IMG/VR virus record: IMGVR_UViG_3300010373_000099
Coordinates: 1-34,512 of that record
Direction: 5' to 3' (one strand)
DNA: 34,512 nucleotides
Source: a virus
Shown: in pieces, positions 385 through 20,385 of the stretch
How the letters are laid out: the number at the start of each line of letters is the position of its first letter
Position numbering within the stretch: the first letter of the stretch is position 1
Position numbers and translations under genes: made by a program
The notes under the pieces: model-generated
What the model was told of the DNA's origin: nothing
The model's input: only the letters and a program-made list of their open reading frames with translations
Databases searched by the model: none

Positions 385-2940
385 CTAAGCATGAATCGCC
401 AGCGCGACCGATGGGCGATGCGGCTCATAGAACGCATAGCCACATTGGTTCGTCGCGGCGTAGAGACGACCGTAGACATTCATGTCGCCACGGATGGACT
501 GGAAGCCGGCCATCTGAGATACCGGCGGGAGATCGGCTTGCGTCCCGGTCGGCCCGAATACTGACCATTCCATCGTCGATCCATCCCATTGACCTTCGAA
601 CAGGCGTGGGGTTGTGCCATAAGCCGACCAGCACAGCAGGTAGAAGGTGGGGTATCCGCCGATATCCCTAGGAGCGCCTATAGTGAGGGCGAGAGGAATT
701 CCGAAGCCGCTTGGCGGCGCTACCAATGAAAAGGATGCGCCGGAGTCCGTCGAGTGCCAGAGACCAATGACGCTTCCGACCGAGATGGATGTCCACCGCC
801 CCGTCAACCACAATTCGCCGGGCCGCCCTGGGACGGAGAGAAGATAAATCCCGGTCATCGTGGTGCTGACCTCAGTAATCGGGATCAATTCAGAGAATGC
901 CCCAAATACCGTTGATTTGAAAATGCGGATCGTTCCCGTCACGTCACCAAGTGCAGCCCATGTCGTACCGAGATCGGAACCATATCCAACAGCGAAAGGC
1001 TTCGACGTGGCCCCAAAAACCCACGACCGCATCATCCAGTTTGCATCCGGAAGTCCCGAGCAGAAATTCCACGCACAATCCAGTGACGTTGCGTTGTTGG
1101 TGAAAGCCGGAACGTAGCCTTGCTGATAGCCAGAAGGACAAGTCAGCCAGCGATCTTTATCGATAGCAACGGTCTGGCCACCTTGGATGGCTTTCGACAA
1201 GCTAAAGGTGCCAGACATGCCGTCCTTACTCGCATTGTCGAGCGTGTAGATACCTTCCTTACCCGACGTCCCACTGGTCTGTCCTGTGACCTTAGCTCCC
1301 GCGTTCTGATCCAGCCAATGATTATTCTGTATCAATTGCCCATCAGGAACCGACGTGACGGTGAAAGTGCTCCCAGATACAGAGCCGACAACGGTTGCCT
1401 GCCACAAGGATGTCGGCGTTGCCGCAGGTGCGACCCACGACCCATCTTCTCCGAGCTTTTCCGAATAGGCTGACGTATCAGCGGCGGAGCCACCTTGCCC
1501 CGTTGCCCGCACGATGCAGATCGAACCGTCAGCAGATTCGCTAACATCTTCGCAGCTATATTCGACGTAACGATCGTATACGTCTTTTGGGTACTGATCG
1601 AACGTTCCCCTGAGAGCGCCGCCGAGGTCTTGCACGCCGATAATCGGATAAGTGCCGCCGACAGGGCAGTAGACATCTTGCGCGACGGTGCATTCCATGC
1701 CGCGCCCAAATGACACCGCTGTCGAATTGCATGGGTTTTGTGAGTAGTCCGGCGGCGCGCTGAAATACCAGATGCTCTGATTGCCGCTCCACCACCACAC
1801 GCCATTCGGGTCGATCAAGGCGTTGGTGGCATACGTGAACGCGCCCGCTCCCTGACCAAATATGTAATTCAGATAGCCGATGTCGTAATCTGGGGCTGTC
1901 AGCGTGCAATTCTGGCCGCTCGTCCGTCCAACCCATGTCGGCGGGGTGCCGGTGTCAGCATTCGTAGTTTTAAAGCCGATTCCGATCCCGTTGCGTCCGA
2001 ACACATAAAGCGTGCCGATGTTGTTAGGATCGAGCGTCAGATGATTGTCGAAGCCGCTATCGAGCGCGGCCGATCCCGAAATGTTAGTCCACGCACCTGA
2101 CTTGTAGCGCCAAATCTGCGCCACGTTTCCAAGGCTGACGTAATAGGTGCCGTTCGCATCGATGACGGCATATCTGACGTAGAAGTTTGACGAACCGTAA
2201 GCGGTGGCGAAGCCTGTGCTGGCGAAGGTCACGCCGCCGTCTGTGGTCTCAAAGATATCGTTCCCGCCAATAGCGGCGAGTACCCGGCTCGTTACTGTTG
2301 CGCCGCTAACAGTCGTTGTGCCAGAGCTTGCGTCGAAGCAAATACCGGCGCAACCGTTGCCGACCGTGCCGTCTCCGAGTGCTGTTATCGCGGCCGGGCT
2401 ATCACCTCCGGTATAGCTCTGCCAAAGAGCGTAACCCTTGCCGCTACTAACTGGCAAACCAACTAGAATATGTAGCGGGTTAACCGGATCAACGGCGATC
2501 TTCGGCGAATCGACTTTTCGATCAGTGTTTGATCCGGCGTTAAGAAACTTTTGCAGCGTCGTCGATTTGGACCACTTCAAGTCGGTCTTGAGAGACGTTG
2601 AGTAGTATAGGCTGTAGTTCGTGCCGCCTTCGTCGTCGCCGGCGATCATGTAGGCAACATTGGAGTTTGACGGAGAAATTATGATTTCCCACGCCCCGAA
2701 ATTTCCGCTGATTTTTGCGGCCGCACCTGCTGGAAGCGACGCATACGTGATGACCGGAATCCATGACTGCGCAGGGTCAGAGACGCTCGCGATCGTCGCA
2801 ACGCCAGACCACAGATAGGCATTTCCAACGTCGGTTCGGCACACCATTGTTCCGTCGTTCGACCTTGAAAAGCCAATGACGAGACCGCCGCAGCCGAGCG
2901 GCAAGACATTCCACGCACCCTTTTGAACTGTGAGGCTCAT
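385..2940 (-). CDS. GH74-like beta-propeller tailspike / receptor-binding glycosidase
   Basis: This 851-aa protein resembles the GH74 (xyloglucanase / oligoxyloglucan hydrolase) double beta-propeller. Near the N-terminus it has CRTDVGNAYLW (D37), matching the GH74 RTD(I/V)GGAYRW motif that carries one catalytic Asp. In the middle it has GMECTVAQD followed by IIGVQDLGGAL (D438), matching the GH74 ALGD(V/I)GGF region that carries the second. Sialidase/BNR-like turns such as TTDGGVTF (233-240) and STDSGASF recur. The C-terminal VYGRLYAATNQCGY resembles the GH74 ending GRVYIGTNGRG. Residues about 510-600 look like an inserted beta-rich domain. The ATG overlaps the upstream stop (ATGA). By position it should be the distal tail adhesin/depolymerase acting on a host surface glycan. 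The fold call is fairly firm; the substrate is unknown. Confidence 0.75.
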   Translation of the reverse strand: MSLTVQKGAWNVLPLGCGGLVIGFSRSNDGTMVCRTDVGNAYLWSGVATIASVSDPAQSWIPVITYASLPAGAAAKISGNFGAWEIIISPSNSNVAYMIAGDDEGGTNYSLYYSTSLKTDLKWSKSTTLQKFLNAGSNTDRKVDSPKIAVDPVNPLHILVGLPVSSGKGYALWQSYTGGDSPAAITALGDGTVGNGCAGICFDASSGTTTVSGATVTSRVLAAIGGNDIFETTDGGVTFASTGFATAYGSSNFYVRYAVIDANGTYYVSLGNVAQIWRYKSGAWTNISGSAALDSGFDNHLTLDPNNIGTLYVFGRNGIGIGFKTTNADTGTPPTWVGRTSGQNCTLTAPDYDIGYLNYIFGQGAGAFTYATNALIDPNGVWWWSGNQSIWYFSAPPDYSQNPCNSTAVSFGRGMECTVAQDVYCPVGGTYPIIGVQDLGGALRGTFDQYPKDVYDRYVEYSCEDVSESADGSICIVRATGQGGSAADTSAYSEKLGEDGSWVAPAATPTSLWQATVVGSVSGSTFTVTSVPDGQLIQNNHWLDQNAGAKVTGQTSGTSGKEGIYTLDNASKDGMSGTFSLSKAIQGGQTVAIDKDRWLTCPSGYQQGYVPAFTNNATSLDCAWNFCSGLPDANWMMRSWVFGATSKPFAVGYGSDLGTTWAALGDVTGTIRIFKSTVFGAFSELIPITEVSTTMTGIYLLSVPGRPGELWLTGRWTSISVGSVIGLWHSTDSGASFSLVAPPSGFGIPLALTIGAPRDIGGYPTFYLLCWSAYGTTPRLFEGQWDGSTMEWSVFGPTGTQADLPPVSQMAGFQSIRGDMNVYGRLYAATNQCGYAFYEPHRPSVALAIHA

Positions 2941-3761
2941 AACGCTTTGCCCATCAGCGACCCGAGATAGGTGTTGATGTGTCCTCGCGTGGTGGCGTCG
3001 GGAATGTATGGCAAAGCGAGAACGCCGTAGACGCGGGCGGCGAAGTATGAGGATGGACTAGTTCGGTAAAAGCACCCCAAACCAAAACGATCAAGCGTCA
3101 ACGCTTGGCGCGTGTAAGTTTTATTAGAGCTTGCCGCGCCATCTGTGTATCCGATGACAGATGCTCCGGTATTGTCGTCTGAGACGCCGACCACTCGGTC
3201 CGTGCCGTCAAACGCATTGGCGCTCAACTGGGTCTGCTGGAGAACAGTTAAACTCGCGCTATTACGGTAAAAAAGACCGAGGTAATTTGCAGTTTGTGTA
3301 TAGATCGGGGCAAAGATAGTGCCCGCATCTGACCCGTTGGCTTGTTGGATTAGATATTTCGATGACTGCCCGGCCACGCCGCGAACAGCCACAAAAACCG
3401 AGTAGCCATTCACCGATGAGTACAACCCTAAATCGGACAGCCTTCGCAGAAACTGCGACGTGCCATCGAAGTTCACATATGGCTGACCGCCGTTCGAATA
3501 CCACTGGCCTCGCGTGGTGTCGTCCGCCAGAGATGACAAGTTGAATGCGTTCGCACTCTTGTCTTGCCAGAACCCGACGTAGTCGCCATCAGCGGCGGGA
3601 CGTGCGCCTGACCCCGCGTTTGACTGATAAAGGTTGGCCGCACCAGCCTCCAGCCACAGCACCGGCGGCGTAGCAAGACTGGCGGGCGTCCATGGCGGCG
3701 CTGCGGCAGCGTCCAACGCCGCCCGACCGCCCGCAATAAGCCCAGGGATGATCTGAAACAT
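2937..3761 (-). CDS. LamG / concanavalin-like tail-associated protein
   Basis: A 274-aa protein. The start at 3761 is chosen because it forms a TGATG overlap with the preceding stop; the reading frame is open further upstream but without support. After an Ala-rich N-terminus, the PPVLWLEAG...GDYVGFWQDKSANAFNL pattern and PYVNFDGTSQFL are typical of LamG/concanavalin A-like lectin folds in phage tail proteins (strand W-L-D/E-A, then W-x-D-x-S-x-N, then F-D-G). It is coupled to the tailspike by an ATGA overlap. A role in carbohydrate binding, or as a spike connector, is inferred from the fold and neighbours. No catalytic motif was recognised. Confidence 0.65.
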   Translation of the reverse strand: MFQIIPGLIAGGRAALDAAAAPPWTPASLATPPVLWLEAGAANLYQSNAGSGARPAADGDYVGFWQDKSANAFNLSSLADDTTRGQWYSNGGQPYVNFDGTSQFLRRLSDLGLYSSVNGYSVFVAVRGVAGQSSKYLIQQANGSDAGTIFAPIYTQTANYLGLFYRNSASLTVLQQTQLSANAFDGTDRVVGVSDDNTGASVIGYTDGAASSNKTYTRQALTLDRFGLGCFYRTSPSSYFAARVYGVLALPYIPDATTRGHINTYLGSLMGKAL

Positions 3762-4348
3762 CAGGAGAACTTCCCGACTGCGATGCACGACACATTCGCG
3801 CCCGTGGTCAGCTTCCATGCACCAGACCGGCTGAAGGCGGCGATCGGAATGAAAAACGGCACGAGGTTCGAGACCGACGATGAGCCGCCCGCGAACACCG
3901 TGATCGATGTCGTGTTGTCGAGTAGGATGATGTTGCCCGGCGATGTGGTTGCCGGAATAACCAGAATGCCGGAGACGTAATCTCCAGCCGCCCCGGCCGA
4001 ACTTTGAAGCACTTGCGCGGTCTGACTTGCGGCAACCGGCAGATAGTAGCCCGTGAGTGCTTTCGTCAGCACATAGTCAGAAGCCAACGCAACCGGCATA
4101 CTCGCCGACATTGTCTTTTGGCCGAGCGAGACCGCATTCGAGACCAGCGCCTGCACGCTGAAACTGATTTGCTTCCAGATCGAGATCGCAGAAGCTGGCG
4201 TTGCATCGGTCGCCGCGCTTTTCGCGTCGGCCTTTGCGCCGAGAGTGGCCTGCCCGCCATCAGCCATCAGGGCGTCGATGGTCGAGACAGTGCCGGTTCC
4301 GCTGTTTGGAACGCCGTTCGAAACCCCAACTGATGTAAGATTTGCCAT
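3761..4348 (-). CDS. Conserved phage tail-region protein, unknown role
   Basis: 195 aa, rich in Ala, Ser and Thr with almost no charged segments, as is usual for beta-structured virion proteins. The N-terminus resembles small phage proteins that begin MANLTS..GVP..GTGTVSTID. The C-terminal half (IILLDNTTSITVFAGG..., FFIPIAAFSRSGAWKLTTGANVSCIAVG) looks like a compact beta-sandwich. It lies between an Ig-like protein and the LamG-like protein, so a structural or adhesin-accessory role is likely. I cannot assign a family. Confidence 0.6.
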   Translation of the reverse strand: MANLTSVGVSNGVPNSGTGTVSTIDALMADGGQATLGAKADAKSAATDATPASAISIWKQISFSVQALVSNAVSLGQKTMSASMPVALASDYVLTKALTGYYLPVAASQTAQVLQSSAGAAGDYVSGILVIPATTSPGNIILLDNTTSITVFAGGSSSVSNLVPFFIPIAAFSRSGAWKLTTGANVSCIAVGKFS

Positions 4349-4351
4349 GAT

Positions 4352-4723
4352 TTAGAACCCCAAGATGTAGAAGGTTGGAACCGAAGTGCCCGCGCTATGC
4401 GTCACCGTAATCAAAAACGCTCGTGTCACGACGCTGCCAGCGCCATTGTCGGCTTGAACCGTGATTGCGTCGGAGCCTGCGGTGAGCGCGGCGGCGACCT
4501 TCAACGCTGATCCGGCAATTGAAAACAGCAAGCCGGGATTGCTCGTGAGCGTGAACGTATAACTCCCCGTCCCGCCCAAGACTGATAGCACGCCAACCGT
4601 GTCACCGACCGCAGCGGTGTCGGCGATGGTGGAGGCAGAAAGGTGGATCGTGGGACCGCTTGACCCGCCCCCGCGCGCACCGAGCCTGCCGAAGCTAGCG
4701 CCAAGCCTGCCAAACGACATCAT
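4352..4723 (-). CDS. Small Ig/cadherin-like tail protein
   Basis: 123 aa. The N-terminus has a tandem FGRLGASFGRLGA repeat followed by a Gly/Ser linker. A single domain follows: STIADTAAVGDTVGVLSVLGG, then SYTFTLTSNPGLLFSIAGSALKVAAALTAGSDAITVQADNG. This is the pattern of cadherin-like / putative-Ig domains (loss of symmetry, then F-x-I-x-G-x-x-L, then Y/I-x-I-x-V-x-A). It begins two bases after the upstream stop without a visible ribosome site, so it may depend on translation of the gene before it. It is probably a small tail or capsid accessory. Confidence 0.6.
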   Translation of the reverse strand: MMSFGRLGASFGRLGARGGGSSGPTIHLSASTIADTAAVGDTVGVLSVLGGTGSYTFTLTSNPGLLFSIAGSALKVAAALTAGSDAITVQADNGAGSVVTRAFLITVTHSAGTSVPTFYILGF

Positions 4724-5943: not shown

Positions 5944-6735
5944 TCATGCCCTCTTGAACAGGTTTGCGATCGCCATAAAAAATGCCGCCAAGATGGACGG
6001 CTGCGGGAGTGGTTTCGGCACCGGGTCTGGCGCTATGGGGTCGGGAACAGGTTCGGGAGGCGGTTTGACCGCGACCGGCGCTTTCAGCCCGAGTTCGAAC
6101 AGATCGGCTTCCTTGTCGCGACGGACCAACAGCCCCCGCAGGCTGGCGTCACCAGCCCAGATCCTCTTCATCGAGCGCAGTTCGGTCGGGATGGCCGAGA
6201 ACCGCCCCGCCGCCATGTGCGCTTTGATGTTGCGCATCTCCTGGTAGCGCGCGCCGGCGTTGCTGAACGACGCCCCGCGATTGTAGACGAGCGACACCAG
6301 CGCGCCCTTGCAGTCAGGCGACAGCTTGTCCCAGTTCGGCAGATTCGCAGCCAACGCCACATATTTCGGCAAAGACGTGTAGCTGAATACGGCAAGGGCA
6401 GATGCCCATGGCACGTCCACCTTGAGGCGGATAGACGCCAGCGCGGCTCCGGCCCGAGCACCCGTCACGCCGGCGACCTTGACCAGTTCGGCCACCATGT
6501 CCGCCGGAAGAAGCCCTCCCCAATCGGCTCGGATTTGAGCCGCAGTCGAGTAGCCGCAGTCATAGCCAATGCCGATCGTGATCCCGGACGCCCCACCCGG
6601 CCGCGTCGGTCGACGATAGCGCTTGTTATAAGCCGCCTCCCCTGACACTTCGAACTCGACGATCAGATCAAAAGCGGCCTGCGAGATGCCGTGCAGGCGC
6701 ACGCCAGCGCTCGCGGCCAAGGCTGCGTTGGGCAT
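5944..6735 (-). CDS. Endolysin, lysozyme-like, with a C-terminal hydrophobic tail
   Basis: 263 aa with an AAAGGA ribosome site. The N-terminal domain has LIVEFEVSGEAAYNKRY (27-40 region) then PGGASGITIGIGYDCGY (47-62). This is the Glu...Gly-x-T-I-G-x-G-Y-D pattern of muramidase-type lysozymes (GH24/pesticin-like); the catalytic Glu is probably E29, with D59 in the GYD motif. VPWASALAVFSY and ALVSLVYNRGASF fit the helical lobe. The catalytic domain ends near residue 220. A Pro-rich linker follows (about 222-245), then a hydrophobic C-terminal segment (ILAAFFMAIANLFKRA). There is no N-terminal signal, so release through holins is expected. The tail is unusual and may target the membrane. Confidence 0.8.
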   Translation of the reverse strand: MPNAALAASAGVRLHGISQAAFDLIVEFEVSGEAAYNKRYRRPTRPGGASGITIGIGYDCGYSTAAQIRADWGGLLPADMVAELVKVAGVTGARAGAALASIRLKVDVPWASALAVFSYTSLPKYVALAANLPNWDKLSPDCKGALVSLVYNRGASFSNAGARYQEMRNIKAHMAAGRFSAIPTELRSMKRIWAGDASLRGLLVRRDKEADLFELGLKAPVAVKPPPEPVPDPIAPDPVPKPLPQPSILAAFFMAIANLFKRA

Positions 6736-7125: not shown

Positions 7126-8646
7126 TCACCTATAGTATTCTTCCACGATAACCACGCCGGCAGCGCCTACACCGCCCGTCTGAGCGGTCGTGTTCAGAGA
7201 AGCCGAGCCGCCGCCGCCTCCGCCGTATTGCTGTCCTGCGGGGCCGTTGCCGCCTAAAGTCTGGCCCGACGCGGCACCCATGAAGCTTTGGCCCCCGCGC
7301 GCCGCAATCGCTTCACTCCCGGAATAACGAAAGGCGGCTTCACCAGCTCCGCCAGGGACGTTGGCGATATTCCCGCCACTGGCGTTGCCGCCAGATCCTG
7401 CTCCAGACGCGCGGCTTGTTGAGGTTCCCGAACCCGTATTATAATTCGTGCCAACACCGCCTGACGCGACAAGCGCGCTGGAGTTGAATGTCGTGTCGCC
7501 TCCTGTCGTCTGCGGTGCGCCACCAGACCCAACAGAATAACTGTAAGAACCCGCAGCCATGATATGCTCGACATACCCGGCACCACCACCACCTGATCCG
7601 ACGTTTGTTTGGCCGCTTGCTGCCGTTGCGTTCGCGCCACCCCCGCCGCCGCCGACAAGGCGAACCCTGATCCAGCGGACCCCAGCGGGGGGAGTGTACG
7701 TTCCAGACCCGGACGTAAACACTTGGACTGTCGGCAGAGTGTCGCTGATCCCGAGATTCGCCCGTGACGTTGCCGCGCTAGTGACATCAGAGAGGTTGTT
7801 CGTGGACAGCATATCGCCGCCGCCGGGAATCGAATCCCATGCCGGATTTGCTGCCGCGCCCTGCGTTTTCAGGAACTGCCCCGACGTGCCTGGGCTGAGA
7901 GCAGCCCAGCCCAACGCCCCCCGGTACAGAACGCTGCCCTGCGTCGAGCTAAATTCAGTATCGAGAGCAGAACCAACCGTCGTCGCCCCAAGCCCGCCGT
8001 TCGCCTTTGGCAGGGTTCCCGTAACACCCGTCGAGAGCGGCAGCCCCGTCGCATTGATGAGTGTGACGGAAGCTGGCGTGCCCAACACAGGCGCTACGAA
8101 CGTCTGTTGGCCCGACCATGAATGCGCGGTCGAGAACACATCCGAATTAAGCATCGCTGACGTGACTTTGGTCGCGCCAATGGTAGCCGCGAACGATCCT
8201 GTCCCAGTGCCAGTAACATCGCCGGTCAATGTGATGGTCTGATCGCCGGTATTGGTGCCGCTGACGGTCGCGTTGTCAGACGCGGTGAGCGTCTTCCCGT
8301 CCACAATCGTGAGCGTGGCCCCGGTCGCGGGAGCCGTGACGGCGACCTTATTAAGCGAAGTAGCGGCAGCAACGCCCAGTGTCGGAGTGACAAGCGTCGG
8401 AGAAGTCGCAAAAACGAGCGCTCCCGACCCGGTTTCGTCAGAGATCACGCCAGCTAGTTGCGCGGATGTCGTCGCGGCAAACTGCGCCAGCGTGGATGCT
8501 GTCGCGCCAGCCCCGATATCGGCGGGCTTAACAACATTCGTCGTCTTTACCTTCTTGACGCCATCGGTCGCGCTATCGGTCAGGAGGTAATAGTCGGCGC
8601 CGGGAACAGTGGCCTCGTTTAAGTCCTTAACTCGAATATCGGTCAT
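7126..8646 (-). CDS. Tail fibre with a glycine-rich C-terminal adhesin domain
   Basis: 506 aa. The N-terminus (MTDIRVKDLNEATVPGADYYLLTDS, then VKKVKTTN) is a common phage tail-fibre start that anchors the fibre. The middle (residues about 50-290) holds low-complexity Thr/Ala/Gly beta-repeat sequence. From about residue 310, FTSGSGTYTPPAGVRWIRVRLVGGGGGG starts a Gly-rich domain with many GG and GGGG runs, ending VVIVEEYYR. Such Gly-rich C-termini in fibres act as receptor-binding tips whose variable loops join polyglycine helices. It is probably a host-range determinant alongside the collar fibre and the GH74-like spike. Confidence 0.75.
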   Translation of the reverse strand: MTDIRVKDLNEATVPGADYYLLTDSATDGVKKVKTTNVVKPADIGAGATASTLAQFAATTSAQLAGVISDETGSGALVFATSPTLVTPTLGVAAATSLNKVAVTAPATGATLTIVDGKTLTASDNATVSGTNTGDQTITLTGDVTGTGTGSFAATIGATKVTSAMLNSDVFSTAHSWSGQQTFVAPVLGTPASVTLINATGLPLSTGVTGTLPKANGGLGATTVGSALDTEFSSTQGSVLYRGALGWAALSPGTSGQFLKTQGAAANPAWDSIPGGGDMLSTNNLSDVTSAATSRANLGISDTLPTVQVFTSGSGTYTPPAGVRWIRVRLVGGGGGGANATAASGQTNVGSGGGGAGYVEHIMAAGSYSYSVGSGGAPQTTGGDTTFNSSALVASGGVGTNYNTGSGTSTSRASGAGSGGNASGGNIANVPGGAGEAAFRYSGSEAIAARGGQSFMGAASGQTLGGNGPAGQQYGGGGGGSASLNTTAQTGGVGAAGVVIVEEYYR

Positions 8647-8649
8647 GAG

Positions 8650-9543
8650 TTAAGCCCCCGCGTAGAGAAGATAGTTGCAGATGATCGTTGGCTGCACGTT
8701 GTTGTGCGTCCCGCTGGCGCCAGCGTTGTTGACTGTGGTGGATAGAGAGAGCGCTCCGGCTGGGATTGTCACCGACGGTGTTTGAGACGTGAAGTTCGGT
8801 CTTTGGAAAAGAGTAGTCCCGCCTCCGACCGTAACGCCTTGGAAATCTGTTCGATCAACCGTCGCCTGGGCGCCGCCGATGCTCAGCGTAAAAGGTGATG
8901 TCTCGTTAGTCGTCGTGGCGGTATGCCCATGTTGGGGCATCTGATCGACAGTGAGGGTGTGTAACTGAGAGCCGCCGGCATATCCCATCGCCGTTCCTGT
9001 TACAGCGCCAGCGCTGGTCAGCCGGCCAGCGGCCGTTCCGCCCATGTCGTCTTTGGCTGCGATGACGCGCCCGCGAAGATCGCCAATGCCAAACGTCGTC
9101 GTTCCATTGCCGTTATTGTAGAAAGTGTTGCCTGCCGCGATGTCGGTTTGAGCCAGCGCCCAGAGATCGGGATACGACGCGCGCAGGAGCGTTTGACCGT
9201 AAGGAAAGACCGTCAATGCTGGAGCGGTCAGAAGCGTGTACGGGATCAACTCGCCAATGAAGCGGATGCCAGCAACCGATCCTGCAAAGGCGATGCCGGT
9301 TGCCGTCCAATAGATGCCGATCGACGGGTTGCTATTCGGATAGATGGCTGGAGTGCTGGCCGAACCAGTGACGGTCTTAAGCGGTCCCGTCATCGGAGCA
9401 ACGCCGGAACGCGGCAACCGAGCCGTTATAGCCGACGCGATATCCTCCAACGGAGGGTTATGTTGTGACGGCTGGATAGTCGAGCCTGTCGCGGCAAGAT
9501 AGCCGGGAACAAGACTGAAATTGCCGCTCGCGTCATCGGGCAC
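8650..9543 (-). CDS. Tail fibre with phage tail-collar domain
   Basis: 297 aa from a GTG at 9543, which has GGAG nine bases upstream. A possible TTG at 9558 is rejected because it sits in the terminator trail and has no ribosome site. ELIPYTLLTAPALTVFPYGQTLLRASYPDLWA, then GIGDLRGRVIAAKDDMGG and MPQHGHT, form a classic tail-collar domain. The C-terminus NNVQPTIICNYLLYAG is the standard ending of collar-type fibres. Its expected role is in the fibre network that contacts the cell surface. It begins immediately after an intrinsic terminator. Confidence 0.85.
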   Translation of the reverse strand: MPDDASGNFSLVPGYLAATGSTIQPSQHNPPLEDIASAITARLPRSGVAPMTGPLKTVTGSASTPAIYPNSNPSIGIYWTATGIAFAGSVAGIRFIGELIPYTLLTAPALTVFPYGQTLLRASYPDLWALAQTDIAAGNTFYNNGNGTTTFGIGDLRGRVIAAKDDMGGTAAGRLTSAGAVTGTAMGYAGGSQLHTLTVDQMPQHGHTATTTNETSPFTLSIGGAQATVDRTDFQGVTVGGGTTLFQRPNFTSQTPSVTIPAGALSLSTTVNNAGASGTHNNVQPTIICNYLLYAGA

Positions 9544-9560
9544 TTTGGCGTTCTCCAAAG

Positions 9561-13060: not shown

Positions 13061-13090
13061 TAACCAAGCCAACCTTTGAAGGAGGTCGAA

Positions 13091-13747
13091 ATGGCTAATC
13101 CCCCTGTATGCTCGATTCCAGATTGCGGCAAGCCGGCCTTTAAGCGCGGGTTCTGCCGCCCGCATTACTATCCCATGCGCGGAGGGCCTGTCTGCTCTAT
13201 CGATGGCTGCAATCAACCCGCCCGTGCGCGAGGTTGGTGTAATGCCCATTGGCGCCGATGGAGCCGGCATGGAGACCCTACGAAGGGGAATAAATCGCAC
13301 GGCGAACTCCCTACATTTCTTAGCGAGACGGTGCTGCCGTTTAGCGGCGATGAATGCTTGATCTGGCCGTATGGCAAGGACGGCCACGGCTACGGCATGC
13401 TGAGTGGGAAGCCCGTTAATAGACTTGTGTGTAAGGCTATTCATGGCCCCGCCCCGACGAGCAAGCATCAAGCTGCCCATTCATGTGGCAATGGTCACCT
13501 TGGCTGCTGCAATCCGCAACATCTTCGCTGGGCGACCCGTTCAGAAAATGAGTCTGACAAAATTGACCACGATACGCATCATCGCGGAACACGCCACCCG
13601 CAAGCCAAGTTGGATGAGAGCGACGTTCGCCAGATACGTTCATTGGCTGGCGTTGAACTACTTGGGACAACCGCTGCACGATTTGGAATCGCACCATCGA
13701 CTGTTTGCGGTATCCAAAAGAGAAACAGATGGGCATGGCTAGAGTAG
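13091..13747 (+). CDS. HNH homing-type endonuclease, opposite strand
   Basis: 218 aa; the ATG at 13091 has a near-perfect AAGGAGGT. Two N-terminal zinc-finger-like modules repeat: C7-x4-C-x9-C-x2-H25 and C35-x4-C-x9-C-x2-H53. The HNH core is at about 128-155: HQAAHSCGNGHLGCCNPQHLRWAT. A C-terminal HTH-like region (AKLDESDVRQIRSLAG, TTAARFGIAPSTVCGIQKRNRW) is typical of DNA-recognition modules of homing endonucleases. It is inserted head-on between late virion genes and ends four bases before the end of the next minus-strand gene. This fits a selfish freestanding endonuclease. Confidence 0.85.
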   Translation: MANPPVCSIPDCGKPAFKRGFCRPHYYPMRGGPVCSIDGCNQPARARGWCNAHWRRWSRHGDPTKGNKSHGELPTFLSETVLPFSGDECLIWPYGKDGHGYGMLSGKPVNRLVCKAIHGPAPTSKHQAAHSCGNGHLGCCNPQHLRWATRSENESDKIDHDTHHRGTRHPQAKLDESDVRQIRSLAGVELLGTTAARFGIAPSTVCGIQKRNRWAWLE

Positions 13748-13751
13748 CCAT

Positions 13752-14771
13752 TTAGGCGGCTCCCATCAGGCCGAGGGCCTTGTCGTAGTTCACCGCCTTG
13801 AACCCGCTTGGCGTGGTGATAACGGCGTTGGGGTGCTTTTTCTCGACCTCACCTGCCATCAATCCGATCTGCGGTTCGTTGCTGCCTTTGTACTTGTAGG
13901 AATACAGATTCTGACCGTCGTTCGTCTTACCGATCTTCTTGATGTCCTTTTTCAAGCGCCGATCCGAGAACTTGTAAACGCCCGCCGCGCCGAGCCCGAA
14001 CAGCCCGCCCAGCAGCGCATTCTGCTGCTGTTGCGCCGTCTGATATTGCTGCTGCTGCTGCTGGAAATTCGAGTTGATGATGCCAGCCGTATCGGTGGTC
14101 GGGATCGTGGTCTGTGGCGTCGCGCCAAACGTCGGGTTACTGACCTGCGAACCGGACATGAGCGCCGTGATTTCGTTGATCGGCTGGTTGCGCGTTGTGA
14201 CCGCCTGCTGGAACGCCTGCTGATTGCCGTTCAAGTAAAGCTGGTTGTAGGCGTCGTTCTTGCCCTGCTGGAATTGATCCATTTGGGCCTTCCAAGCCGC
14301 AGAGCCAGGCTGGATACCCTGGTTGGCAAGCTGTGTCGCCAAAGCATCGCCCTGCCGTGCGAACATCGGATCAAGTCGCGCTGCGCCGAGCGCGTCAATC
14401 TTGTCCTCAACCGCCTTGTTCGCCGTCGAAGCATCAAACGGCGTATTGAGCAATGAACCGATCTTGCCGGACTGCTGAACGCCGATGTTGCCGAGGTTCT
14501 GCTGCGTCTGATTGTTGAGGTCGTAAAGCTTCTGCTGATCTGGCGATAGCGTCGTGGTCTGCGTATAGTTCGGGATATCATAGGTCTGCCCCGTATAGGG
14601 ATCAGTGAATTTGCTGGTCCCGCTCTGGCTATACATCAGGCTGCCGTTGGGGCCGACCTGATTGACGTTGTTCAGGCTCGCATTGGCGAGCGCGGTCGCG
14701 ACGTTCGTCCCGGTCGAGGCCGCTGCGGTATCGCGCGGGTTAGGGGGAGCGGGAGCGGATGGTGCGCACAT
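13752..14771 (-). CDS. Virion protein with C-terminal S74-like (endosialidase chaperone) domain
   Basis: 339 aa. The N-terminus is Pro/Ala-rich (MCAPSAPAPPNPRDTAAAS). The middle is helical and Gln-rich, with Gln runs at about residues 235-250. GGLFGLGAAGVYKF precedes the C-terminal SDRRLKKDIKKIG, then NLYSYKYKG, QIGLMAGEVEKKHPNAV and FKAVNYDKAL, which match the peptidase S74 intramolecular-chaperone start (S-D-x-R-x-K, cleavage before Ser269). Only 71 residues follow the Ser, shorter than a full S74 domain. Similar proteins lie between nozzle and ejection genes in related podoviruses and are probably internal or tail components. Confidence 0.7.
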   Translation of the reverse strand: MCAPSAPAPPNPRDTAAASTGTNVATALANASLNNVNQVGPNGSLMYSQSGTSKFTDPYTGQTYDIPNYTQTTTLSPDQQKLYDLNNQTQQNLGNIGVQQSGKIGSLLNTPFDASTANKAVEDKIDALGAARLDPMFARQGDALATQLANQGIQPGSAAWKAQMDQFQQGKNDAYNQLYLNGNQQAFQQAVTTRNQPINEITALMSGSQVSNPTFGATPQTTIPTTDTAGIINSNFQQQQQQYQTAQQQQNALLGGLFGLGAAGVYKFSDRRLKKDIKKIGKTNDGQNLYSYKYKGSNEPQIGLMAGEVEKKHPNAVITTPSGFKAVNYDKALGLMGAA

Positions 14772-14772
14772 T

Positions 14773-15246
14773 TTAGCAGCCCTCGAAAGTGTAAATCATG
14801 GCATGAGCCGCATGTTTAAAACCCATGCGCTCCCAGATTTTTGCAACTCGCAAATCGGTAACCGCAGACACCAGAACGCGCCTCACACTGCGGGATCGAA
14901 GGTCTGCCAGAATGAATTTAGCGAACCGCCGCCCCACTCCATTGCGATGCTCTTTAAGCAGGAAGATCGTATCTTCCTGCGCGATCAATTCGCCGTTGTG
15001 CATGTCGTTGGTCAGATAGATGTTGCTGTAACCCACCGCGCCGCCGCTCTCGTCGCGGACAACGTAGTTGATGATATGGCCCGCGTTCCAGCCTGCGATG
15101 TACTGATCGAGACGTGGATTAAAGTTCGCAATAGAAATCCCGTCGCGCGCTAGACGATCCTGCATTTCCCGATAATGGGCCGCGTAGAGTGGGAATAATT
15201 CCTTCAGCGTTACAGAGCCGTGCTCGATGCTGAACTTGTATTCCAT
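14773..15246 (-). CDS. GNAT-family N-acetyltransferase in the tail operon
   Basis: 157 aa; the start at 15246 forms TGATG with the nozzle gene stop. Features of the GNAT fold: VVRDESGGAVGYSNIYLT (beta-3/4), TIFLLKEHRNGVGRRFAKFILADL (acetyl-CoA P-loop, R/H-x-x-G-x-G/A, at about 110-120), and VSAVTDLRVAKIWERMGFKHAAHAMIY at the end. It sits between nozzle and S74 genes. Acetyltransferases occur at comparable places in several podoviruses, but their substrate is unknown. Possible targets are virion proteins, host proteins or surface sugars. Confidence 0.8.
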   Translation of the reverse strand: MEYKFSIEHGSVTLKELFPLYAAHYREMQDRLARDGISIANFNPRLDQYIAGWNAGHIINYVVRDESGGAVGYSNIYLTNDMHNGELIAQEDTIFLLKEHRNGVGRRFAKFILADLRSRSVRRVLVSAVTDLRVAKIWERMGFKHAAHAMIYTFEGC

Positions 15247-17156
15247 CACGTAACCAGATCGCCCGTCGTGTAGGTCACATCCATCCGCAGGATCGTTGCA
15301 TCCAGCGGAACGATGCTGCCCGATGTAAGCTGCAAGGCCGGGGCCATCGCGCTTCCGGTGTTCGGCGTTGAATGCCAGTTGCCGGAAGTCGCCTTGATCA
15401 GGTTCTGGCCCCAGACGGCCGAACCCCAGAGACCGCCGCCCCACACGTTCGATGTCGGGGCGATAGAGCCTGACGGCACAGCCGGGAGATTAACGTCAAA
15501 CTCGGTGTGCATCGAAAGTTGCTCGTTGAGCGGCGCGAGCGATTGCAACACGGCGCGGGTCATGCCCGCTGTTTTCGTGGTCGGCGCTCCGAAGTCGCTA
15601 AACAGTGGAACGTAAGTCCCGGTATAGGGCTGCCCCATATCGGAGCCGGTGACGTTGGCTTCGATTACTTGGGACGCGGTTGATCCGAAGAACAGCCGGT
15701 TTTGAAACACGGCCATGCAGCGGCTATCCCAGCCGGTGAACTTGCCCCACGCTCCAGTTCGCAAATTGGCGACGTACAGAACGGGAGGCAAATTGTTGAC
15801 GGCAGGCGGATTAACGATCGCGATCTGGTTCGCCGACCAAATCTGGCAGCGCCAGTAAGTCCCGGATCTTGCCGAAACCTCGCTATTCCAGATCGTTTCA
15901 ATGGGAGCCGACACGGCCGACGGCGACAGAACCGAAAAATCCTTTTGCAGCGCAGTCGAGAGCGGGATCAGGCCGATGTCGGTCGAAACCACGATGTCAC
16001 CACCAGCGCGGAAGTGCGCCTCCGGTCCAAGCGGCTTGCCAACGCGATAGACACCGACCTTTGACCACGTTGCAGCCGTGCTGGGATCAGTACCTTGATA
16101 AACCGCAACCTCGCCTTCGGTCGTGAAGAAGGCGCAGTACTCCTGCAAGCCTCCCGCGCCGGTCTCAAGTGACCATGACGATCCGAACAGAAGCGAACCG
16201 CCCAGGTTGAACACGCCGCCGAGCGGTAATTCCGTGGCCGCACCGCTGATAGATGCGGCCGGCAGATACCATGCACTCAACGTGTCTTTTTGGATGTAGA
16301 AAAGCCGCTGCTGATGCGTCCAGTTATAGGACAGCTTGGTCAGGTCAACGCCGGTCATCGCCCCGAATAGCAGCGTTGGCGTTCCGCTCGATGTCGCAGA
16401 GCCGGGAGACGTGTTGTTGTCCGTGATGGTCTCGGCGGTCTGGAACGTGCCAGTGACGCCATCAAGCCAAAGCGTCCCGGTCGTGCCATTGTCGATGACA
16501 TGGACAATGGTTCCGGTCGCTGACGATGTGCCGCCCGTCAGTGTCTTGCCTGTCGTGAATGGCGCGGTCTCGGCGGTATAGTTGAAGGCGTAGAGGCTGG
16601 TGTCGGTGATCGGATAGAACGTGGTCCCATCATAAATTTGCTTGGTATCGCTGCCGTTCACCATATCCAGGAATACGCCGCCCGGAGTCGCGAATTGCAC
16701 CACGGACCAATCGCCGCTCGTCAGGCCACTTATGATGACAGAAGCCCGCGTTATCGACGGGATGAACTTAACCGCATCGTCACCGCTGCCAGACGCCACG
16801 AACCGATTACCCAACCCGTCCGTAAAATAAACCTGCGTAATTGCGGTCGAGACATCATAGATTCCGGTCGCAGTCGCGGCGAACATCTTCTCGTTGCTGC
16901 CGTTCTTGTAGGTGAACAGCGAAACGACATCCTCAACGCCGTCTGAAATCACCTGATAGAGCTGCGATCCGCGACGTAGTAACGCGTCCGTCGCGCGTGG
17001 GATGAAGTTCTCTAGGATCAACGCCCCGCCCGACGGCGGTTGCGCCGGATTAGCGTTCGCGATGATGCCGAGCGTCGGCGCCGGGATCGTATACGGCTTA
17101 TAGGTAGCCGGGACTTGCGCCGTTTGTCGTGCGGTGGCGCGACCTGAGCGGATCAT
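15246..17156 (-). CDS. Tail nozzle / packaged-DNA stabilisation protein (P22 gp10-like in position)
   Basis: 636 aa, ATGA-coupled to the adaptor gene. It has beta-propeller-like repeats: ALILENFIPRATDALLRRGSQLY, VSLFTYKNGSNEKMFAATATGIYDV, RLFYIQKDTLSAWYLP, and PVLYVANLRTGAWGKFTGWDSRCMAVFQNRLFFGS. The opening (NPAQPPSGGALILENFIPR) is common to nozzle-type proteins of podoviruses. Residues about 205-260 form a Gly/Thr-rich inserted beta domain. Position after two small adaptors and before ejection genes supports a tail-hub or nozzle role. The family name is inferred. Confidence 0.7.
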   Translation of the reverse strand: MIRSGRATARQTAQVPATYKPYTIPAPTLGIIANANPAQPPSGGALILENFIPRATDALLRRGSQLYQVISDGVEDVVSLFTYKNGSNEKMFAATATGIYDVSTAITQVYFTDGLGNRFVASGSGDDAVKFIPSITRASVIISGLTSGDWSVVQFATPGGVFLDMVNGSDTKQIYDGTTFYPITDTSLYAFNYTAETAPFTTGKTLTGGTSSATGTIVHVIDNGTTGTLWLDGVTGTFQTAETITDNNTSPGSATSSGTPTLLFGAMTGVDLTKLSYNWTHQQRLFYIQKDTLSAWYLPAASISGAATELPLGGVFNLGGSLLFGSSWSLETGAGGLQEYCAFFTTEGEVAVYQGTDPSTAATWSKVGVYRVGKPLGPEAHFRAGGDIVVSTDIGLIPLSTALQKDFSVLSPSAVSAPIETIWNSEVSARSGTYWRCQIWSANQIAIVNPPAVNNLPPVLYVANLRTGAWGKFTGWDSRCMAVFQNRLFFGSTASQVIEANVTGSDMGQPYTGTYVPLFSDFGAPTTKTAGMTRAVLQSLAPLNEQLSMHTEFDVNLPAVPSGSIAPTSNVWGGGLWGSAVWGQNLIKATSGNWHSTPNTGSAMAPALQLTSGSIVPLDATILRMDVTYTTGDLVT

Positions 17157-19392: not shown

Positions 19393-20385
19393 TTAGCTCG
19401 CCGCCGTCAGCCCAAAGAGGTCTGCGGCAACCCCGAGCCCCTTTTCGTTGCTCACCTTGAGCGTGCCCTCGCCAATGATAACGCCGGCATCCGCGTCCGC
19501 ATTGACCCGAACCTTCTTGTCCTCCTGGATTTTACGCAGCCAGAGGAACGACACCATGTCAGTGTCGAGGAAGAAGGCATTACGCGCCACGCCGGCAGAA
19601 GTCGCCATGACGCGGTTGGGCTTCACCATGATCCGGCCGAACGGGCCTTCGTAAATGTCCGCGTTGGCGATGATGGTGTTGTTGCTGCCGTTATCGACCG
19701 AATACCGGAACGGCGCGACATTGCTGTCCGACATGAAGGTGACAAACACCGACTTGACGTAAGGCGACACAACAACGGAGCGGAAGTTTGCGCCGGAGTT
19801 ATAGCCCTGCTGCATCACGTCATCCATGATGGTCTTGGTGAAGGCGCGCTGCGACCCATTCGTGGCCGCAACCGTCAGGCCGGTGCCAGCATTGAAGCCG
19901 CCATTCGACCCGCCCGCGTCACGGCTGACGTTGGTCGCGATCCAGGTCGGCAAGCCGCCAAACTCGCGGGTTGAGCCTCCGACGGAAGCGTTGTTGGTCA
20001 CAATCGCCAACTCGACATCCTTGCGGATTTCAACGCCCTTCTTCAGCTTCTGGTGCTTGCGCTTCTGCACCTTGCCGGCCTCGTCCACAACCTCCTGAGT
20101 GTTGGAGATGATCCAGTCCTTGCGTAGAATCTGGGTGTAGTCGCCCATACGAACTGGCGGCGTGACCTGACCGAAGTTGTATTCCTCGCCTTCCGGGCGG
20201 ATGTTCTCAGCGGGGGCGGCGAGCTCTTCGGTTTCCCACTCGGGATGCACCGAAACGCATTTGCCCTTGGGAATCATGGTGTAGATCGGCGTATCTTCCG
20301 GGGTAATGCGGGACACGATGTCCGAAAGTTCTTCCCGGTTGCCGACCGCAGAAGTCGTCAGGAATGTATTGGTAACAGCGGCCAT
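19393..20385 (-). CDS. Major capsid protein, SU10/DUF5309 type
   Basis: 330 aa with the strongest ribosome site in the late region (AGGAGG). It matches the SU10-type HK97-fold capsid family. N-terminal NREELSDIVSRITPEDTPIYTMIPKG is followed by WETEELAAP, TQILRKDWIISNTQEVVDEAGK, a helix with KKGVEIRKDVELAIVTNN (spine-like), FGGLPTWIATNV, and the C-terminal VAADLFGLTAAS. The neighbouring scaffold and decoration genes support the call. Confidence 0.88.
   Translation of the reverse strand: MAAVTNTFLTTSAVGNREELSDIVSRITPEDTPIYTMIPKGKCVSVHPEWETEELAAPAENIRPEGEEYNFGQVTPPVRMGDYTQILRKDWIISNTQEVVDEAGKVQKRKHQKLKKGVEIRKDVELAIVTNNASVGGSTREFGGLPTWIATNVSRDAGGSNGGFNAGTGLTVAATNGSQRAFTKTIMDDVMQQGYNSGANFRSVVVSPYVKSVFVTFMSDSNVAPFRYSVDNGSNNTIIANADIYEGPFGRIMVKPNRVMATSAGVARNAFFLDTDMVSFLWLRKIQEDKKVRVNADADAGVIIGEGTLKVSNEKGLGVAADLFGLTAAS

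Follow-up and report, generated by a model that had tools for sequence, protein, structure and literature searches.

What does the large gene that closes the late operon of this phage encode, and how does its product reach and act on the host? The window, that is, the whole stretch of DNA analysed, is a 34,512-base virus record, and the protein of the ORF in question was labelled P0001. The first-pass annotation described an 851-aa terminal tail protein, a tailspike or adhesin built on a GH74-like propeller. The ORF proved to be real and to be encoded on the minus strand, from an ATG at 2940 to a stop codon whose last base is 385; across 385-2940 the plus strand is interrupted by 17 stops. "Terminal" was also correct at the operon level, as this is the last minus-strand gene of at least 80 aa and the contig ends 384 bases away. 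The features of the late region were the following (L008 is a viral locus carrying a relative of P0001, described below):

385..2940, minus strand: GH74-like glycoside hydrolase P0001, 851 aa, by homology and model; double seven-bladed propeller predicted
2937..3761, minus strand: tail-cluster protein upstream of the GH74 gene; weak match to PHROG_10356, virion structural (E 1.1e-6)
3761..4348, minus strand: late protein of 195 aa; N-terminal motif in common with L008 7408-8055 (60% over 30 aa)
4352..4723, minus strand: Ig-like small protein; weak match to a Hoc-like PHROG (E 0.0047)
5944..6735, minus strand: endolysin, from Pfam/PHROG-type library searches
7126..8646, minus strand: glycine-rich tail fibre protein (PF21722, phrog_863)
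8650..9558, minus strand: tail collar-domain protein (PF07484, phrog_8763)
19393..20385, minus strand: major head protein, 78% identical to that of Rhizobium phage RHEph18, which places the phage

The gene at 2937..3761 is listed from 3818 and its likely start is the ATG at 3761. Its stop overlaps the start of the GH74 gene in an ATGA sequence, so the two genes are probably translationally coupled. This overlap, together with the weak virion-structural match of the neighbour, speaks for a late product that is tail-associated or released at lysis, rather than for an early metabolic gene. The predicted fold of the coupled neighbour (293 aa) was uninformative (pLDDT 33), and no recognisable kinship was detected between it and the Laminin-G protein encoded beside the related enzyme of locus L024. 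The motif NGVPNSGTGTVST of the 3761-4348 protein is homologous to NGVPTAGSGTVST of L008 7408-8055; a putative signal peptide is present in the L008 copy and absent from the window copy.

For the terminase, portal, head and ejection genes, the order matches that in RHEph18 (head protein 78%, terminase 68%, portal 60%), and the host is therefore probably an alphaproteobacterium. Beyond the collinear block, no further gene pair shared by the window and RHEph18 was detected downstream in that region; the equivalent end of the RHEph18 late region carries a SASA carbohydrate esterase and a double GDSL protein. Two other genes of the window deserve mention. An HNH-type protein, 47% identical to the RHEph18 HNH endonuclease, is encoded on the plus strand at 13076-13747 amid the minus-strand late operon, and a GNAT acetyltransferase lies among the structural genes (14773-15444, minus strand), at a place where the RHEph18 annotation has an N-acyltransferase.

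Used alone as a query, the P0001 sequence had no significant match in PDB, Pfam, PHROGs or NCBIfam. With tblastn against plasmids it weakly matched cellular proteins from Streptomyces, Burkholderia and Bradyrhizobium. Of the cellular proteins tested, those of Burkholderia and Croceibacterium match GH74 xyloglucanases of the PDB at 1.5e-162 and 5e-139, respectively. An HMM of cellular GH74 was built from four proteins, these two among them, with the query excluded, and scored on P0001 and on 2000 shuffles of it: P0001 gave an E-value of 8.8e-25, versus 0.051 for the best shuffle. When four phage proteins were aligned with the four cellular ones by hhalign, the probability was 99.9 over 659 columns. 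In addition, a profile of 15 viral proteins reached PDB GH74 structures at values down to 1.2e-122, and one made from the closest three phage proteins alone matched GH74 exclusively (the broad alignment A4 was too divergent to serve as a scanning query). At the sequence level P0001 is thus homologous to GH74 across its full length, including the catalytic module of characterised members, and the kinship put forward by the first-pass annotation is confirmed.

The predicted structure agreed with this assignment. The AlphaFold2 model of P0001, made with 15 viral sequences, was all beta, with a mean pLDDT of 77 and a pTM of 0.81. In a Foldseek search of the PDB with this model the top 25 matches were all GH74 chains (E 1.5e-33 to 1.2e-16), and the first match outside the family, another double propeller, appeared at 7e-14. 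VIA-align superimposed the model on 5fkq with a Z of 35.2 and an rmsd of 3.8 over 658 residues; nearly all other GH74 entries gave Z of 30-35 and an ancestral GH74 entry 25.4, whereas chains outside GH74 scored about 25 or lower, most of them covering one propeller only. The match between the model and the GH74 chain spans residues 7-841, and P0001 is predicted to be a tandem seven-bladed double propeller, the number of blades being taken from the GH74 match. The comparison of an AlphaFold model with GH74 structures, proposed as a check of the double propeller, was consequently favourable. No good match of the model was found in the BFVD library (TM at most about 0.30). The right-handed beta-helix trimer is the commonest class of phage tailspike depolymerase; the P0001 model is instead that of a propeller protein.

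The motifs named from the sequence, TDVGNAY with D37, VQDLGGAL with D438 and the C-terminal YGRLYAATNQCG, were all located at the residues given for them, and D37 and D438 match the catalytic-type Asp of cellular GH74. The positions concerned, all from alignment, are:

2830..2832, minus strand: encodes D37, which corresponds to the catalytic Asp replaced by Ala in 2cn3
1627..1629, minus strand: encodes D438, which corresponds to the second catalytic Asp of GH74 and is unchanged in 28 of 28 sequences
439..471, minus strand: C-terminal GH74 signature GRLYAATNQCG, residues 824-834, aligned with the cellular YGRVYIGTNGRG
1156..1407, minus strand: Ser/Thr/Gly-rich insert, at roughly residues 512-595, in the second propeller

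Against four cellular GH74 proteins the invariant residues were R35, T36, D37, G39 and Y42 around the first site, and D438 and G441 around the second. The D37 column holds D in 2cn2 and A in 2cn3, both of them entries of the Clostridium thermocellum xyloglucanase, and titles of further GH74 PDB entries name the mutants D60A and D465N, used for trapping complexes. Just 12 columns were invariant in 21 viral, cellular and PDB sequences, D37 and D438 being among them. Neither residue varied among the 28 viral and cellular sequences that cover the two sites (the 29th sequence of this larger alignment is partial and does not include the first Asp site), even though identity drops to about 22%. As read from these alignments, both catalytic-type Asp are retained, one per predicted propeller.

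Other GH74 features have been modified in P0001. Asp-box repeats in the blades are typical of GH74, although they do not strictly define it. With a strict pattern, two were counted in P0001, versus 8-9 in cellular GH74, and 2-3 in its sub-clade, versus 6-9 in full-length cellular GH74 and 4-8 in most other phage GH74 proteins; Pfam is blank for P0001 because its sub-clade has lost most of them. The Trp-Trp residues that form the +3/+5 platform of processive GH74 (PMC10317168) were absent from all phage sequences. As no single consistent offset was obtained when subsites were mapped by the published ClGH74A numbers, only this motif and the catalytic Asp were used. The missing platform hints at another substrate or a dissociative mode, but it is no proof of a substrate other than xyloglucan, because a Xanthomonas GH74 xyloglucanase without +3/+5 aromatics still cleaves xyloglucan (PMC8245568). 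At the insert site of the second propeller, an insert is also present in L008, and none in L009 or cellular GH74. The position of the Ser/Thr/Gly-rich insert differs among these close enzymes: it follows residue 512 in P0001 and L008, and lies in the first propeller in L009.

Alignment-based scans of IMG/VR identified 17 loci with relatives, L008, L009 and L024 showing 36-42% identity and the rest 24-30%. As these loci include three near-duplicate pairs, they represent 14 distinct viral proteins besides P0001. The records carrying phage hallmark genes were those of L008 and L023 (major head protein), L009 (portal), L010 and L013/L014 (terminase and portal), L011 (head maturation protease), L012 and L021 (terminase), L015 (major head protein and head-tail adaptor), L019 (weak head protein) and L024 (baseplate); the records of L017, L018 and L022 are without such confirmation. 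A maximum-likelihood tree grouped 14 phage proteins, P0001 among them, in a single clade with a bootstrap of 100 and placed the xyloglucanases outside it, the nearest branches being L022, Persicobacter and a Bradyrhizobium plasmid protein; the cellular sampling of this tree consists of plasmids and PDB entries, so that the phage clade may include cellular members. Pattern scans of viral and genome contigs revealed no close relatives of P0001, and the alignment-based scan of genomes gave neither a confirmed relative nor a prophage host. Among 50,697 phage records there was one clear GH74 relative, the unannotated fragment MT838787, which grouped with cellular enzymes. Finally, L026 and L027 are two GH74 copies, about 90% identical, at opposite ends of the 45-kb contig IMGVR_UViG_3300037458_000563, reflecting either gene duplication or assembly of variants.

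Taken as a whole, the analysis favours, with a probability of roughly 0.62, P0001 being a phage-branch GH74 depolymerase acting on a decorated, beta-glucan-like bacterial polysaccharide. By analogy with GH74 structures, the two seven-bladed propellers predicted from model and homology would face each other and hold the sugar chain in the cleft between them. D37 of the first propeller and D438 of the second, whose conservation is observed, would be the general acid/base pair, and a beta-1,4-glucan-type backbone would be cut with inversion. The substrate would most likely come from the bacterial host or its biofilm, as cellulose or a decorated glucan-like exopolysaccharide, and not be plant xyloglucan. 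P0001 would be made late, coupled with the tail-cluster protein, and reach the outside via the virion or through release at lysis. The esterase-type genes (SASA, GDSL) at the end of the RHEph18 late operon were counted for the depolymerase reading; against it were counted the eroded Asp-boxes, two in P0001, and the fact that conserved acids can persist in a binding-only protein.

Within this reading, how the enzyme is delivered has two answers, tail attachment and release, which we consider about equally likely. That P0001 is a true tailspike, a virion component attached via the coupled upstream protein and acting as the primary receptor-binding depolymerase, is a sub-case to which we give slightly less than even odds. 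It is consistent with the place of the gene in the late operon, where genes for the tail fibre, lysis and small structural proteins precede it, with the ATGA overlap with a virion-structural-like gene, with the variation of this region between related phages, and with L017, in which a long protein that is otherwise unassigned ends in a fused GH74 domain. However, the propeller begins directly at the N-terminus (about residue 7-8), and Pfam and PHROG searches found no N-terminal virion-anchor domain, which a separate adaptor could supply, nor any PHROG tail family for P0001. The N-termini of several relatives resemble export signals, and such proteins would exit the cytoplasm before assembly: those of L008 (MKLDRRQLIAGAAALG) and L024 (MKLSRRHLLATASAAAL) are twin-arginine-like, that of L015 is similar, and those of L012 and L017 were Sec-like in a crude test. 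The L008 and L024 signals would suit a released enzyme. The same crude test also flagged P0001, yet the hydrophobic stretch is its first propeller strand and there is no convincing signal peptide. Thus GH74 homology, the double propeller and both Asp stand from the first-pass description of a GH74-like tailspike or adhesin, and the tailspike or adhesin role, given the negative anchor and tail searches and the L008 and L024 signals, stays hypothetical.

Sec- or Tat-like signal peptides were also seen, by the crude test, at the start of runs of adjacent tail or late-region genes, which is odd for a virion region:

L015: 4991-5455, 5460-6110, 6724-9093, 9093-9848, 9860-12064, 13196-14869
L017: 934-2580, 2583-8030, 8824-10119
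L024: 7017-8927, 8909-9871, 9872-12451
L008: 7408-8055, 9884-12664, 19599-20534

The product of L017 2583-8030 (1,815 aa) starts with a signal-like sequence, continues for about 1,100 residues that matched no PHROG and ends in the GH74 domain.

A GH74-derived adhesin or receptor-binding propeller, in which the cleft binds the host polysaccharide without cutting it, would fit the strong divergence of P0001 from cellular GH74 (22-26% identity), the loss of most Asp-boxes and the missing Trp-Trp platform of processive xyloglucanases. We consider it unlikely, since relatives that only bind should have lost at least one Asp in some lineages, and both are found within the about 12 columns invariant in 21 sequences. 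Quite improbable is an auxiliary metabolic gene, that is, a released xyloglucanase or beta-glucanase degrading plant polymer for the host during infection and not for phage entry: it agrees with the report of auxiliary GH74 genes in viral contigs from cold seeps (PMC8319345) and with the Tat- or Sec-like N-termini of L008, L024, L015, L012 and L017, but the gene closes the late operon, coupled to tail-cluster genes, which is too late to feed the host, P0001 itself carries no convincing signal peptide, and the phage clade has long been apart from the xyloglucanases.

With the GH74 endo-xyloglucanases of C. thermocellum (2cn2), C. lactoaceticus (6p2m) and C. japonicus (5fkq), P0001 has in common the predicted double seven-bladed propeller, full-length homology, both catalytic Asp and the C-terminal GRxYxxTNxxG motif. 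It differs from them in its low identity (about 20%), few Asp-boxes, lack of the +3/+5 Trp-Trp platform, extra insert, absence of a secretion signal or CBM and location in a phage late operon. The GH74-like protein of a Bradyrhizobium barranii plasmid (L004), which adjoins the phage clade in the tree and is also without the Trp-Trp platform, is instead cellular, and its neighbours are a glycosyltransferase gene and one for a type I secretion permease/ATPase. This protein (in L004 3175-12741) is, with that of Persicobacter, the nearest cellular branch, and asnB is also adjacent to it. As for other phage depolymerases, a GH74-fold adhesin had been called unusual, which holds for the family and not for propellers as such: n-bladed propellers made up 119 of 984 candidate depolymerases (12.1%) in DepoScope (PMC11326577), and the GH58 endosialidase K1F is likewise a propeller, of the Asp-box type (PMC2716378). 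GH58 has a single six-bladed propeller, whereas the GH74 type has two with a shared active site between them. The S74 chaperone domain, a C-terminal feature of GH58 endosialidases, was not found in P0001 by Pfam and is present in another protein of the window (13755-14771). In the literature searched, no work was found joining GH74, phage and depolymerase. Viral GH74 was noted once before, as an auxiliary gene (PMC8319345); in the part of that source available, the cold-seep genes, likewise encoded in viral contigs, are treated as carbon-cycling auxiliary genes with hosts unidentified, and no clade, active-site or tail-context analysis appears.

GH74 has hitherto been treated as a plant-xyloglucan family. 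An intact catalytic pair combined with an altered substrate platform leads us to expect depolymerases of a new specificity, probably for a beta-glucan-like bacterial matrix, among proteins which standard annotation misses, P0001 being blank in Pfam, PHROGs, NCBIfam and single-sequence PDB searches. A wider scenario is possible, though we hold it to be doubtful: phages may own a separate GH74 branch that shifted from plant xyloglucan to bacterial exopolysaccharide and is spreading among unrelated tailed phages, some members being exported via Tat or Sec before lysis and others, such as P0001, delivered by the virion or by lysis. If this were true, infected cells with Tat- or Sec-bearing members would export an enzyme dissolving their own matrix before lysis. 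A phage branch of GH74 with the catalytic pair intact and the platform altered would also recast viral "GH74 auxiliary genes" as phage host-interaction enzymes.
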